Assembly (NCBI RefSeq): GCF_004340785.1
Contig: NZ_SLXS01000004.1
Location: forward strand, 372,001-436,000
DNA: 64,000 nt
DNA from: Tumebacillus sp. BK434
GTDB lineage: Bacteria > Bacillota > Bacilli > Tumebacillales > Tumebacillaceae
Direction: 5' to 3'
In this document: piece by piece, positions 28,986 through 37,065 of the stretch
Layout: each line of letters starts with the position of its first letter
Numbering within the stretch: position 1 is the first letter of the stretch
Position numbers and translations under genes: made by a program
Notes under the pieces: model-generated
Told to the model about the DNA's origin: nothing
Database searches by the model: none
What the model saw: only the letters and a program-made list of their open reading frames with translations

Positions 28986-29441
28986 ATGAAAAGGAAGAGC
29001 TACAGTCAGTCGCTCGCTGATCTGAAAGGCCGCGGTATTCGTCTGACACCGCAGAGGCAAATCATTCTGCAGTATCTGAAAGAAACCGAGGAGCATCCGA
29101 CAGCCGAGCAAGTGTATCACAAAATAGGGGAACAGTTTCCGGGCATTTCGCTGGCGACTGTGTACAACACCTTGAACATGCTCAAGGAATTAGGGGTAAT
29201 CCGCGAATTGTCGTATGGAGATGTCTCCAGCCGTTACGACGGCAACGATTCGGAGCATGCACACCTGGTGTGTGAACATTGTGCCCAAGTGCTGGACATC
29301 GCATCTCCGCCGGAAGAGGCGGTACTCACCAAGAATGTACAACAAGCCGGATTTACGGTGTCTTCATATCGCTTGGAGTATTATGGAACTTGTGCGTCGT
29401 GTGCGCAAAGCGCGCCGTACCAAAAAGATCACGCTTCGTAA
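28986..29441 (+). CDS. Fur-family regulator, PerR type (copy 1)
   Basis: 151 residues. A winged helix (RLTPQRQIILQYL to LATVYNTLNMLKELG) and a dimerisation domain. Every PerR metal ligand is at the Bacillus subtilis position: H37, D85, H91, H93 and D104 for the Fe/Mn site, and C96, C99, C136 and C139 for the structural zinc. In known PerR the Fe-bound His37 and His91 are oxidised by peroxide, which releases DNA. AGAAAGAGGGGG precedes the ATG. A paralogue follows 123 bases downstream. Confidence 0.87.
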   Translation: MKRKSYSQSLADLKGRGIRLTPQRQIILQYLKETEEHPTAEQVYHKIGEQFPGISLATVYNTLNMLKELGVIRELSYGDVSSRYDGNDSEHAHLVCEHCAQVLDIASPPEEAVLTKNVQQAGFTVSSYRLEYYGTCASCAQSAPYQKDHAS

Positions 29442-29564: not shown

Positions 29565-30023
29565 ATGCTGAGAAGCTCGTTTACAGAGTCCCTCGCTGAT
29601 CTGAAGTCTCGCGGCGTGCGTCTGACACCGCAGCGGCAGATGATCCTGCGTTATTTGAAAGAGACGCACGAACATCCGACAGCCGAACAGATTTATCATC
29701 AGGTCAGCCAGGAGTTTTCCGGAATCAGCATGGCGACCGTTTACAATACCCTGCACCGTCTGAAGGAGCTTGGCGTGATCCGCGAGCTGTCCTACGGTGA
29801 CATGTCGAGCCGCTATGACGGCAACGACTCGGAGCACGCGCATCTGGTCTGCGAAGGCTGCGGCAAGGTAAGCGACGTGCCCTGTCCGCCGAAAGCAGCG
29901 CTGGAGACGCCGGAACTGGCTGAGCTTGGCTATGCGGTCGGTTCGTACCGGCTGGAGTTTTACGGCATTTGCCCGAGCTGCCAGGCGCATGAGGTGCGCC
30001 CGCAGGATTCTGAGCTGAACTAA
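29565..30023 (+). CDS. Fur-family regulator, PerR type (copy 2)
   Basis: 152 residues, collinear with copy 1 and identical to it across much of the DNA-binding domain (for example HPTAEQ-[VI]-YH, YDGNDSEHAHLVCE). All PerR ligands are again at H37, D85, H91, H93, D104, C96, C99, C136 and C139. GTGAGGTGAAGCGAG precedes the ATG. It has its own promoter, with a PerR-box-like site that suggests feedback by one or both paralogues. The two recognition helices differ slightly (LATVYNTLNML against MATVYNTLHRL). Confidence 0.87.
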   Translation: MLRSSFTESLADLKSRGVRLTPQRQMILRYLKETHEHPTAEQIYHQVSQEFSGISMATVYNTLHRLKELGVIRELSYGDMSSRYDGNDSEHAHLVCEGCGKVSDVPCPPKAALETPELAELGYAVGSYRLEFYGICPSCQAHEVRPQDSELN

Positions 30024-31182: not shown

Positions 31183-33387
31183 TCAGACCCACTCCATGAT
31201 GATCAGGTCGCCGTGTTTGATCGGTGTGAGAAAGGTCGCCGGCAGCGCGTTGACGGTCAGCTTCAGGTCGAGCGCGCCGGGCGGGCGTTCGTCTTCGATG
31301 CGGATGTAGCGGAACAGGTCGCTCAGCACCGGCTGCCATTCCGGCGTCTCGGCCGTTTCGCCGCCCTGCGGCTGCCGGTTGAAGAGCAGCGTGTCTCCGT
31401 CGCGGACGAGGTCGTCGAGCGATGCCGGTTTGCCGTTTACGTAGATCGGCGGGCGCGGACCTTCGAGGTTGATCGGGCGGTTGTTGCAGAGCACGCCGAT
31501 CGTCAGCCCCGGATGCAGGCTCTCGTCATAGAAGAACCGCACGTTGTAGATCGGGTCGGGCGCCGGGCCGAACTGCAGCATGTCACCGCTGTGCACCGGC
31601 GTCTCCAGCGCGGCCGCCGCGTCGTTGAGCAGCAGTTCATACGGCTGGTGGGGCAAGGTGACGCTTTCGCCGTCGAGGGTGACCGTAAAGCCGTGCGGGC
31701 GGTCGAGCAGTTCCAATTCCCATGCTTCGAGATCGGGCAGCGCCTGCAGGACGTGCTCCACCGTCCGCGGGCGTTCGACGGTGATCTTGGCGCGGTCGAG
31801 GACCGGCGTGTCGGGTGCGGCCAGCTCGCCGTTCATCAGCAGGCGGGCCGGGAGCATGTGCTCCTGGCCGCGGAAAAACACGGTCAGCGGCTCCGGCAGC
31901 AGATGGGCAGGCAAGATGTCGGCGATCACGGCCGACGCATCTTCCCCGGACACGCCGCCGAGCACTTCCAGCTCGTCGCCGTGCTGGATGACATCGTCGA
32001 GCTTGGCCGACTGGCCGTTCAAGAGCAGTTGGGCCGGGGTGCCGAGCGTGCCGCGGATCACTTTCAGTTCGCCTTGCACCTCTATGCTGAGTGCGAGGCC
32101 GGGGCGTCCGTGCAGTTTGCGGATGTCGACATCGGCGGCGATCAGCGCGTCGCCGACGGTGATCTGGCGGAACTCAAACAGGCGCAAGGACTTGCCGTTG
32201 ACGCGGATCGCCACCGAGGAGACCGGGTGCTGCAAGGCAGCCAGGGCGATGCCGATCGGCGTGACAGCCTGCGGGCCGGAGAGCGCTTCGTGCTGGGCGG
32301 CGAGCTGTTTGATCGCATCGGTGCTGCGGATCGCAACGCGCTCCTTGGGCAGCTTGAGCTCGGCGGCCAGCAGCGGGGCGAGCATCGGGGTTTGCGAACC
32401 GCCGCCGACCAGCATGACGGCGGCGGGCGCTTTGTGGTTGAGCTTGAACACTTCATAAGCGATCTGGGTGGCGAGGCTGCGCACCTCTTCCTGAATCGAC
32501 TCGATCACATCGCGCGCAGGCAGGTCGTATTCCATGCCCAACACGTCGGAGAACTGCACCTGCTCCTCGGTCATCAACTGGCGCTTGAGCAGCTCCGCGT
32601 CCGGAAAGTCGAGCAGGTGTCGCTGCGACAGCGCTTCGGTGATCTCATCGCCCGCCACCGGCACCATGCCGTAGGCGACGACGGTGCCTTCGGCGGTCAA
32701 GGCGATGTCGGACGTGCCGGCGCCGATGTCGACGAGCACGAGGTTCAGCTTGCGCATCGACGGCGGGATCAGCGCGTTGATCGCCGCGATCGGCTCCAAA
32801 GTCAGCGCCGCCATCTCGAGGTCGGCGCGCTCCAAAGCCATCTGCAGAGAGTCGATGACGACGCGGGGCAGGAAGGTGGCGATGATCTCAACGCTCGCTT
32901 TCAGGCCGAACTGGTCTTCGAGCGAGCCGATCACGCTGTCGTCGAGCAGGTAATGCACGACGGTGTAGCCGACACAGTGATAGCGGGCCGCATCGGGCGC
33001 CATCTCCTGCAGTTGACGCTCCGCCTGCTGGACGGCGGTAAGCTCCAAGGCGAGGATGACGTCGCGGGTGACGCGCTCGCCTTGGATGTCGCGGTCGACG
33101 CGGGTGCGGATCGTTTTCAGAGCGCGTCCGGCCGCGGCGACTGCTACTTTGCGCAGCGGGCCGGTCGTGCGCTCCAACTCCGTTTTGACTTGACGAATCA
33201 CATCGGCGACGAGGGCGACGTCGTGGATCTGCCCGTCGAGCATGGCGCGGGTGACGTGCTCCTTCTCCACGGTGGCGGCGACTTCGAGCAGCCCGGCGCC
33301 GTTGAAGCGGGCGACGAGGCCGACGACGGTGCGCGTGCCGATGTCGAGTGCAAAGATCTGTTCATCCTGCGAGTGGTGCTGGGTCAA
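31183..33387 (-). CDS. FtsA-like actin-fold ATPase with five C-terminal beta-grasp-like repeats
   Basis: About 734 residues. The first 390 form an FtsA/PilM-type actin fold: phosphate 1 ALDIGTRTVVGLV, phosphate 2 LVDIGAGTSDIAL, adenosine motif MLVGGGSQTPML. The last 340 hold five copies of a roughly 60-residue unit ending in a pattern like LLxNGxxAxLDDxVxxGDxLxF, for example LLLNGQSAKLDDVIQHGDEL and IYVNGKPASLDDLVRDGDTL. That pattern recalls ThiS/TGS-like beta-grasp modules. The true FtsA has no such tail. TTG 33387 fits AAGGGGG best; TTG 33393 or 33408 are possible. Role unknown; a cell envelope or division scaffold is inference. Confidence 0.72.
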   Translation of the reverse strand: MTQHHSQDEQIFALDIGTRTVVGLVARFNGAGLLEVAATVEKEHVTRAMLDGQIHDVALVADVIRQVKTELERTTGPLRKVAVAAAGRALKTIRTRVDRDIQGERVTRDVILALELTAVQQAERQLQEMAPDAARYHCVGYTVVHYLLDDSVIGSLEDQFGLKASVEIIATFLPRVVIDSLQMALERADLEMAALTLEPIAAINALIPPSMRKLNLVLVDIGAGTSDIALTAEGTVVAYGMVPVAGDEITEALSQRHLLDFPDAELLKRQLMTEEQVQFSDVLGMEYDLPARDVIESIQEEVRSLATQIAYEVFKLNHKAPAAVMLVGGGSQTPMLAPLLAAELKLPKERVAIRSTDAIKQLAAQHEALSGPQAVTPIGIALAALQHPVSSVAIRVNGKSLRLFEFRQITVGDALIAADVDIRKLHGRPGLALSIEVQGELKVIRGTLGTPAQLLLNGQSAKLDDVIQHGDELEVLGGVSGEDASAVIADILPAHLLPEPLTVFFRGQEHMLPARLLMNGELAAPDTPVLDRAKITVERPRTVEHVLQALPDLEAWELELLDRPHGFTVTLDGESVTLPHQPYELLLNDAAAALETPVHSGDMLQFGPAPDPIYNVRFFYDESLHPGLTIGVLCNNRPINLEGPRPPIYVNGKPASLDDLVRDGDTLLFNRQPQGGETAETPEWQPVLSDLFRYIRIEDERPPGALDLKLTVNALPATFLTPIKHGDLIIMEWV

Positions 33388-33413
33388 GGTCAAGACCCCC
33401 TTTTCCAAAAAGA

Positions 33414-34619
33414 TTATCGGGTGATGACCGAGAAGCCTTTTTCCTGCAAGCGCTTCAATATCCGGTCTTGATGCGCATGGTCGCGCGTTTCGATGTCGAT
33501 CTCCACTTCCGCTTCGCCGAGCATTACGCGCGAGCCCATGCGGTGGTGCTGAATGCCGATGATGTTGGCGCGCTCGGTGGCGAAGATGCCGAGGATCTCC
33601 TGCAGCACGCCCGGCTTGTCGGGCACGGTGGTGTTGATGCGCAGGTAGCGTCCCGCTTCGACGAGGCCGCGCTCGATGATGCGCGACAGGAAGTTCACAT
33701 CGACGTTGCCGCCGGAGAGCAGCACGGCCGTCTTCTTGTCGCGGAAGGGCAGCTTGTCGTACAGCGCGGCGGCGAGGCCGGTCGCGCCAGCCCCTTCGAC
33801 GACCAGCTTGTTGCGCTCGATCGCGAGCAGCATGGCGCGGGCGATCTCCTCTTCTTCGACGGTGACGATGTGGTCGACATACTGTTGGGTCAGCTGGTAG
33901 GTGATGTCGCCAGGGCGGCGCACGCAGATGCCGTCGGCGATCGTGGCGACCGTCTCCAGCGTGCCGATCTCGCCTTGGTCGATCGAGGTCTTCATGCAGG
34001 CGGCGCCGGCCGCTTCCACACCGACGATCGTGATGTCCGGCTTGGCGAGCTTGGCGGCGAGCGCGATGCCTGCGATCAAGCCGCCGCCGCCGACCGGCGC
34101 GACCAGCACGTCGATGTCGGGAAGTTGCTCCAGCACCTCGAGCGCGATCGTGCCTTGTCCGGCGATCACCGCCGGGTCGTCAAAAGCGTGGACGAATGTC
34201 ATGCCGCGCTCCTGCTGCAGCTCCAGCGCTTTGGCGTACGCTTCGTCGTAGTTGCTGCCGTGCAGGATGACTTGCGCGCCGTAGCGGGCGGTCGCTTCGA
34301 CTTTGGAGAGCGGCGCTGCTTCCGGCATGACGATGATGCAGGGGATGCCGGCGTTATTCGCGCCGTACGCGACGCCTTGGGCGTGGTTGCCCGCCGATGC
34401 GGCGATCACGCCGCGCTGGCGCTCCGCTTCGGTCAGCGTGGCGATCTTGTGGAACGCGCCGCGAATCTTGAACGAGCCCGTCTTCTGCAAATTCTCCAGC
34501 TTCATATAAATCTGGTTGTGCGACAAGTCGGAAAACGTCTTCGAATAGTCGAGCGGCGTGTTGTGGATGACGCCTTGTAAATTGGCGCGGGCAGCGAGAA
34601 AATCGGTCATTGTAAGCAA
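33414..34619 (-). CDS. ilvA: Threonine ammonia-lyase (threonine deaminase) with ACT domain
   Basis: 401 residues from TTG 34619 (AAAGGTG upstream); ATG 34610 is an alternative. The PLP lysine is K51 in SFKIRGA, and the phosphate-binding loop is VGGGGLIAGIAL. The C-terminal 75 residues form one ACT domain (TTVPDKPGVLQEIL), as in the shorter TdcB-ACT type rather than the two-ACT biosynthetic form. It converts threonine to 2-oxobutanoate and ammonia for isoleucine synthesis. The ACT domain implies amino acid control. It is divergent from hisC. Confidence 0.9.
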   Translation of the reverse strand: MLTMTDFLAARANLQGVIHNTPLDYSKTFSDLSHNQIYMKLENLQKTGSFKIRGAFHKIATLTEAERQRGVIAASAGNHAQGVAYGANNAGIPCIIVMPEAAPLSKVEATARYGAQVILHGSNYDEAYAKALELQQERGMTFVHAFDDPAVIAGQGTIALEVLEQLPDIDVLVAPVGGGGLIAGIALAAKLAKPDITIVGVEAAGAACMKTSIDQGEIGTLETVATIADGICVRRPGDITYQLTQQYVDHIVTVEEEEIARAMLLAIERNKLVVEGAGATGLAAALYDKLPFRDKKTAVLLSGGNVDVNFLSRIIERGLVEAGRYLRINTTVPDKPGVLQEILGIFATERANIIGIQHHRMGSRVMLGEAEVEIDIETRDHAHQDRILKRLQEKGFSVITR

Positions 34620-35970: not shown

Positions 35971-37065
35971 ATGAGCATGAGCAAAGTGAGATTTGAGGAA
36001 TTGCGTGCGCAGTTGGATGAGGTGAACCTCGAGATTCTGGAGGTGCTGAACCGCCGCGCCGAGTTGGTGTCGGAGATCGGTCTGCTCAAGAGCGGCAAGG
36101 GGACGGAGCGGTTCGACCCGATCCGTGAGAAGGAGATGCTGGACAAGGTGGTCGAAGCGAACAAGGGCCCGTTCCCGGATGATACGATTCGCCATCTGTT
36201 CAAGCAGATCTTCCAAGCCTCGCTTGGGCTGCAAGAAGAGGAGAAGAAGTCGCTGTTGATCTCCCGCAAGAACAAATCACAGGATACGGTCGTCCAGATC
36301 GGACCGCTGACGATCGGCGCCGGAAATCCGGTGATCATCTCCGGGCCATGCTCGGTGGAGACGGAAGGGCAGATGGAAGCGGTCGCTTCGCATCTGCAAG
36401 GCGAAGGCATTCTGCTGCTGCGCGGCGGCGCGTACAAGCCGCGCACCTCGCCGTATGATTTCCAAGGCCTGGGCAAAGAGGGACTGAAGATCCTGAGCGC
36501 GACGGCGAAGCGCCACGGCATGGTCTGCGTGTCGGAGATCGTCGCACCGGAAGATGTGGAAATGGCCTGCGAGTTTCTCGACGTGATTCAGATCGGTGCC
36601 CGCAACATGCAGAACTTCGAGCTGCTCAAGGCGGCCGGTTCGGTGCGCAAGCCGGTACTGCTGAAGCGCGGGCTGTCGGCGACGATCGAAGAGCTGCTCT
36701 ACGCGGCGGAGTACATCGCGTCGCGCGGCAACGATCAGATCATCCTGTGTGAGCGCGGCATCCGCACCTATGAGAAAGCGACGCGCAACACGCTCGACAT
36801 TTCGGCGGTGCCGATCTTGAAGCAGGAGACGCATCTGCCGGTCGTCGTCGACGTGTCGCACTCGACGGGGCGCAAAGACATCATGTTCCCGATCGCCAAA
36901 GCCGCGCTTGCGGTCGGAGCGGACGGCCTGATCGTCGAAGCGCACAACGAGCCGGCGGTCGCCCTGTCTGACGCCAAGCAGCAGCTCGACTTGAATCAGT
37001 TCAGCACGCTGATGAACCAGCTTCGTGAGAGCGGGTACCTGAAGGACACGGTCAACGCGAAGTAA
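35971..37065 (+). CDS. aroA: Bifunctional chorismate mutase / 3-deoxy-7-phosphoheptulonate synthase
   Basis: 364 residues: an AroQ-type chorismate mutase (about 1-90, [22 protein letters not shown]) fused to a KDO8P-type DAHP synthase (about 105-360, with [26 protein letters not shown] and [11 protein letters not shown]). This is the Bacillus AroA(G) arrangement, in which the mutase domain acts as sensor of chorismate and prephenate. It starts the shikimate pathway. GAGGAGAGTGAG precedes the ATG; an ATG two codons on is equally possible. Probably cotranscribed with hisC, 43 bases upstream. Confidence 0.92.

Follow-up and report, generated by a model that had tools for sequence, protein, structure and literature searches.

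Among described proteins, the closest in fold to the one reported here are FtsA (e.g. PDB 7q6i, 7q6d and 1e4g), which binds a peptide of FtsN in its 1A-1C cleft (PMC7613929), and PilM (TIGR01175; PDB 2ych). A further actin-like family, FcmB, is presented in PMC12645912 as the fifth in bacteria, descended from plasmid-partitioning actins and tied to cell shape in filamentous cyanobacteria. On the side of the beta-grasp fold, the relevant systems are the ThiS, MoaD, SAMP1 and TGS domains and the multi-ubiquitin-domain proteins (PDB 9cd2, 9d59 and 9d5a).

A gene in a stretch of 64,000 nucleotides from Tumebacillus sp. BK434 (the window) encodes an actin-type head with a long beta-grasp-related tail, and we refer to this protein and its orthologues as the long form. 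The long form shares with FtsA the actin fold over ~346–364 aligned residues and the same ATP-site residues, and differs from it in an extra tail of ~350 residues, the lack of an amphipathic C-terminus and of a conserved R/E pair in subdomain 2B, a score below the family cut-off, and its position in a separate clade. PilM is the second-best fold (Z 30.9), but the long form scores 51.6 bits against a PilM cut-off of 133 (NCBIfam), and PilM has no such tail. The first tail unit resembles the ThiS/MoaD/SAMP1/TGS domains by profile and by predicted structure, whereas the C-terminal diglycine of the sulphur carriers is lacking (the window protein ends in MEWV), unit 1 has an extra hairpin, and the units stand in tandem. 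Tandem ubiquitin-fold modules are also the feature shared with the multi-ubiquitin-domain proteins, which have no actin-type head and match the tail with low TM-scores (0.11 and 0.18). With FcmB the likeness is that of a further actin-like family, the two being set side by side by description and not by sequence. The individual folds are known; a literature search covering part of what is in print returned no paper naming the family and no description of their combination, of the separate clade or of a linkage to min and rodA genes, and the family is apparently uncharacterised.

The long-form gene is a single open reading frame on the minus strand with its stop at 31183, as seen from the ORF listing and the translation (Table 1). 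An earlier note, made from the sequence and naming no strand, had placed the frame at 31183–33408; the frame is real and its stop holds, but the TTG start at 33408, which adds seven residues, is probably too early. The TTG at 33387 is likelier because it is preceded by a putative Shine-Dalgarno-like AAGGGGG. Residue numbers below follow the resulting 734-residue protein (734-numbering) unless marked as 741-numbering. Full-length long forms are present in 34 of 61 related genomes (own included), the others being 33–92% identical to the window protein, and an antisense or annotation artefact was rejected on this ground.

Table 1. Features of the long-form gene and of its neighbours in the window (window coordinates).
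Feature	Coordinates	Strand	Basis
Whole gene	31183..33387	-	734 residues and stop; likely TTG start; orthologues share the same end
SD-like AAGGGGG (putative)	33396..33402	-	8 bases ahead of TTG 33387; sequence reading
Head, residues 1-386, FtsA/PilM-type actin fold	32230..33387	-	AlphaFold2, Foldseek, VIA, Pfam FtsA 47.6 bits
Phosphate-1 motif DIGT, residues 15-18	33334..33345	-	Invariant in 34 aligned rows
Family motif EH..R.M.DGQIHD, residues 43-56	33220..33261	-	Mostly invariant in 34 and 78 rows
Phosphate-2 motif DIGAGT, residues 220-225	32713..32730	-	34-row ortholog alignment
Adenosine motif GGGS, residues 328-331	32395..32406	-	34-row ortholog alignment
Tail unit 1, residues 388-482, beta-grasp with extra hairpin (predicted)	31942..32226	-	Pfam ThiS; VIA Z 8.2 to SAMP1
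Tail unit 2, residues 483-540	31768..31941	-	hhalign against other units 95.9-98.8%
Tail unit 3, residues 541-610	31558..31767	-	hhalign against other units 97.3-99.1%
Tail unit 4, residues 611-672	31372..31557	-	hhalign against other units 96.7-99.1%
Tail unit 5, residues 682-734, strand at end (predicted)	31186..31344	-	hhalign against other units 95.9-97.3%
Threonine-dehydratase-like gene (PALP and ACT), directly upstream	33414..34619	-	Pfam; gap from coordinates
aroA-type DAHP synthase/chorismate mutase	35971..37065	+	Pfam; two genes intervene in the window; conserved neighbour elsewhere (synteny)

The head has the FtsA-type actin fold that the earlier note had read from three nucleotide motifs, as borne out by an AlphaFold2 model and by Foldseek and VIA searches with it. 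The model, built from 78 sequences, has a mean pLDDT of 89.7 and a pTM of 0.66, so that the single domains can be trusted more than their arrangement. Ranks 1–17 in Foldseek are all FtsA, followed by PilM, and VIA gives Z-scores of up to 36.6 for FtsA (rmsd 2.4 over 346 residues of the predicted model for the top match), 30.9 for PilM and 24.6 for MreB/Mbl; Pfam matches MreB_Mbl and PilM_2 in addition to FtsA. The three motifs are present, none of their D, G and T residues varying across an alignment of 34 orthologues, and comparison of 131 long heads with 16 canonical FtsA sequences shows that the ATP-site residues are common to both, while many other residues conserved in canonical FtsA are not retained. 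We infer that the head binds ATP, and it may polymerise. The motif EH..R.M.DGQIHD, also found in other long forms, is not shared with canonical FtsA and may line a ligand or peptide cleft.

The tail was described in the earlier note as five repeats, and this is well supported. With unit borders that we set from the predicted model, all ten unit pairs give hhalign profile-profile probabilities of 95.9–99.1%, compared to maxima of 9.61% when units are aligned with the head (30 comparisons) and of 7.23% for head against head (15 comparisons), and a chance origin of the repeats was therefore rejected. The structure prediction that had been proposed for the tail likewise recovers repeat units when it is modelled alone (pLDDT 92.4): a hairpin, helix, inserted hairpin and two strands in unit 1, and a helix, hairpin, strand and strand in units 2–4, with unit 5 being shorter. 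The suggested likeness to ThiS/TGS modules holds for unit 1, both in structure searches and in a Pfam search with the window protein, where ThiS is matched at residues 461–488 (741-numbering) and its 22.9 bits just exceed the gathering score of 22.5; it holds less well for units 2–5, slices of which match ThiS in only 1, 5, 5 and 6 of 26 members, with weak E-values, even though these units are homologous to unit 1. Across 78 aligned tails Pfam matches ThiS in 64, TGS in 45 (both at E ≤ 0.1, best 1.8e-13), Ub-Mut7C in 44 and S4 in 15. The sole Foldseek match to the tail at E ≤ 0.001 is the multi-ubiquitin protein 9cd2, with a low TM-score, followed by SAMP1, TGS domains and ThiS with probabilities near 1 and E-values of 0.01 to 0.07. 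VIA places SAMP1 at the top (Z 8.2, 65 residues, rmsd 1.9) and haptocorrin/transcobalamin domains at 7.7, in a list that bears on unit 1 only and whose rows from Z 7.2 to 8.2 are tied and include unrelated-looking domains. Unit 1 is thus, by its predicted structure, a beta-grasp domain of the ThiS/SAMP1/TGS type, and units 2–5 are by sequence its homologues, their own fold being less certain. An S4 identity, suggested by a match to the S4 protein YabO at E 0.21 in a PDB profile search, was rejected, ThiS, TGS and Ub-Mut7C all being commoner than S4 among the tails.

The number of units varies. A pooled profile from one third of the alignment rows, which misses diverged or contig-cut units, counts five in 72 and four in 5 of 77 Bacilli-type sequences; in a second set of 72 loci (see below) it counts five in 29, four in 26, three in 12, two in 4 and one in 1. 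Long forms of ~585–600 residues have about three units and those of ~720 residues mostly five, such that the arm overall comprises about three to five beta-grasp-related modules. No second protein with such a tail was found in the genome of the window, the other two matches having E-values of 0.31 and 0.35.

The long form is not a member of FtsA, on four grounds. The window protein reaches 93.7 bits, half the NCBIfam FtsA (TIGR01174) cut-off of 175.85, with two other members at 109.9 and 83.2. The C-terminal amphipathic membrane helix is absent, the last 14 residues having moments of 0.42–0.83 (mean 0.65, n = 16) in canonical FtsA versus a mean of 0.23 in the long forms (n = 77) and 0.34 in the window protein, where AlphaFold2 predicts a strand at the end. 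The 2B R and E, which we take to be residues with a role in FtsZ contact, are invariant in all 16 canonical sequences (21 FtsA loci less five with no acceptable ORF) and are not kept in 131 long heads, where A (0.30) and E (0.20) are the most frequent letters, in a gappy part of the alignment. Finally, in a tree of 49 heads (PilM left out; midpoint root for drawing only) the long forms (100/99), canonical FtsA (97/95) and MreB (100/99) are separate, their stems measuring 3.4, 2.0 and 4.0 changes per column. The lack of both the membrane helix and the 2B residues argues against a plain Z-ring tether. As the earlier note had presumed, the organism's own ftsA lies elsewhere, on another contig (G000:C7:159280-160371, 384 bits), and is followed by ftsZ (C7:160575-161546). 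A recent duplication of this ftsA was rejected, given 25% identity over residues 16–362 and the separate clade. The long form thus resembles FtsA and PilM in fold and probably works like an actin protein of the FtsA/PilM type, but forms a clade of its own.

The family is a large one and no one-off, and about half of the genomes sampled from the phylum have a member. A scan of named contigs gave at least 592 confirmed relatives, the best 80 of which come from Bacillaceae, Brevibacillus, Kurthia, Sporosarcina, Heliobacterium, Kyrpidia, a Negativicutes MAG and others; Anoxybacillus is also among the genera. Among 398 sampled genomes, 215 carry the long form (E ≤ 1e-30), four of them with two matches and the rest with one. 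Counting canonical FtsA as matches over the NCBIfam cut-off at E ≤ 1e-60, 134 genomes have both proteins, 81 the long form only (some of these being incomplete), 81 canonical FtsA only, and 102 neither. Sixteen of the 81 long-only genomes were re-searched at a lax threshold, and in all 16 the long form comes out as the top FtsA match (its position agreeing with the phylum scan in 12 and with a separate look-up in 4), the remaining matches being partial, in ORFs of 274–399 residues, and MreB-like by range; FtsZ was found in all 16. The long form is not generally needed, as it is absent from 183 of the 398 genomes, and in 102 of those 183 there is no canonical FtsA over the cut-off either.

In the window, the threonine-dehydratase-like gene directly upstream is likely to be in the same transcript as the long form. 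Among the best 80 of the at least 592 named loci, an aroA-type gene lies on the opposite strand no more than three genes upstream in 72, ytxJ, ytxH or ytxG is additionally found within four genes downstream in 61, and ytxH is a neighbour in 56. At the locus profiled for this arrangement (L090) the neighbours are a DAHP synthase/chorismate mutase, a LacI-type regulator, YtxH, DUF948, YtxJ, a Mur ligase and an FtsK/SpoIIIE protein; we take the DUF948 gene to be ytxG by its position, and the names ccpA, ytxG, sftA and SpoIVFB for neighbours are putative assignments. Division phenotypes are reported for B. subtilis ytxG, and binding to GpsB for S. aureus YtxG (PMC12716459). Because in the Bacilli the long-form gene runs towards ytxJ/H/G (convergent) and away from aroA (divergent), it forms no operon with them. 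A crosslinking model, PDB 9a51, pairs YtxH with the actin homologue Mbl according to its title, and this pairing together with the nearness of ytxH makes YtxH a candidate partner of the long form.

Different arrangements emerge from the second set of loci, mostly non-Bacilli and about one per family, which we picked from the stronger listed matches of the phylum scan; in this set as in the first, neighbour genes are the longest ORFs, called with no gene finder, and profiles were run on one locus per arrangement. In 6 of the 72, spanning four GTDB families that are possibly related, the long-form gene has minE as its immediate upstream and rodA as its immediate downstream neighbour, all on one strand. 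Profiles at one of these (L179) confirm MinC, MinD, MinE, a RodA-family protein, a PBP2-like transpeptidase, MreC, MreB and an M50 protease, the gene for which follows in these loci and is presumably of the SpoIVFB type; three of the six show mreB/mreC upstream, and the stretches of the other three start inside PBP2. Another setting has an MreB-family gene a few genes upstream (L172, by profile, and L192). A CheR-type methyltransferase gene is in the neighbourhood in 13 loci; in 9 a single-domain version of it immediately precedes the long form in the same orientation (profiled example: L191:3-815, ahead of a long form at L191:842-3001). In three loci the long form precedes a ctsR-mcsA-mcsB-clpC-like cluster, and most of the second set share no clear division theme.

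The likeliest role of the long form is that of a cytosolic scaffold linking either the selection of the division site or wall synthesis by the rod complex to the cytoskeleton, with the tail docking its partners, a reading to which we give an even chance. The protein would be an actin-type ATPase scaffold not anchored to the membrane by itself, the head of which may accommodate, in the 1A-1C cleft, a short peptide from the cytoplasmic part of a membrane protein, on the model of FtsA and FtsN, and possibly form filaments by analogy with FtsA. The multivalent beta-grasp arm would replace the membrane helix and FtsZ contact of FtsA and offer several docking sites for division or elongation proteins, and Min, RodA/PBP2 and MreB would be linked to the cytoskeleton during ordinary growth. 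Since the gene lies inside a cell-shape and division-site cluster in some bacteria, it may be an overlooked component of division or shape; counting against such a scaffold are the min-rodA setting in only 6 of 72 loci, the want of a division theme at most of the others, the gene orientations in the Bacilli that preclude an operon there, the threonine-dehydratase-like neighbour in the window, and the absence from 183 of 398 genomes. If the scaffold reading is true, the machinery for division or shape includes an unstudied actin-type protein in about half of the genomes sampled from the phylum, with a new route by which an actin homologue recruits partners through a multivalent beta-grasp arm, and the protein becomes a candidate for whatever takes the place of FtsA in lineages that lack it. 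A stronger version, in which an ancient separate actin-like family replaces FtsA where it is missing, as an ATP-dependent hub for Min, the rod complex and the Z-ring with a ubiquitin-fold array in place of the membrane helix, we regard as rather unlikely.

The distribution of the long form could also be accounted for by a divergent FtsA, one that has kept its function as a membrane tether of FtsZ and stands in where the canonical protein is missing, as in the 81 of 215 carriers without a canonical FtsA over the cut-off, of which the 16 re-searched have ftsZ and the long form as best FtsA match. The absence of the C-terminal amphipathic helix and of the conserved 2B R/E pair speaks against this, as do the 134 carriers that also have canonical FtsA, and we consider it quite improbable. 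A role in sporulation, at polar division or engulfment, fits too, given the enrichment of Spo0A among carriers (199 of 215, versus 146 of 183 non-carriers, a count blind to kinship) and the M50 protease gene of the min-rodA loci, but those 146 genomes have Spo0A without the long form, and 16 carriers, 13 of them at least 90% complete, lack a Spo0A match. Sporulation thus seems not to be required, and a strictly sporulation-bound gene was rejected; the broader sporulation role we hold to be improbable. Kurthia, which carries the long form, is not known to form spores.

A PilM-like role of the long form, as the platform of a pilus or of a secretion machine, is suggested by the second-best fold and by the CheR-type gene directly upstream in 9 of 72 loci; it is very improbable in view of the score of 51.6 bits against a cut-off of 133, and inspection of the common neighbour clusters revealed no pilN-type family. 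The ilvA-like and aroA-like neighbours in the window, together with an NCBIfam EutJ match of 36.8 bits to the window protein and the TGS (45 of 78) and S4 (15 of 78) matches of the tails, point instead to a EutJ/reactivase-type regulatory or chaperone-like ATPase for amino-acid enzymes, or to a ribosome- or RNA-linked protein acting through TGS/S4-like units. However, ilvA is not the common neighbour elsewhere, the EutJ score is far below that of FtsA, and ThiS matches outnumber those to S4, so that this too has a low probability.

Two further observations concern the window itself. An antisense open frame of 752 codons (31213–33471, plus strand) overlaps the long-form gene and is probably a by-product of G+C-rich codon use. 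At 28986–29441 and 29565–30023, also on the plus strand, there is a tandem pair of genes, which we take to be Fur/PerR-like, with products identical at 97 of 151 residues.
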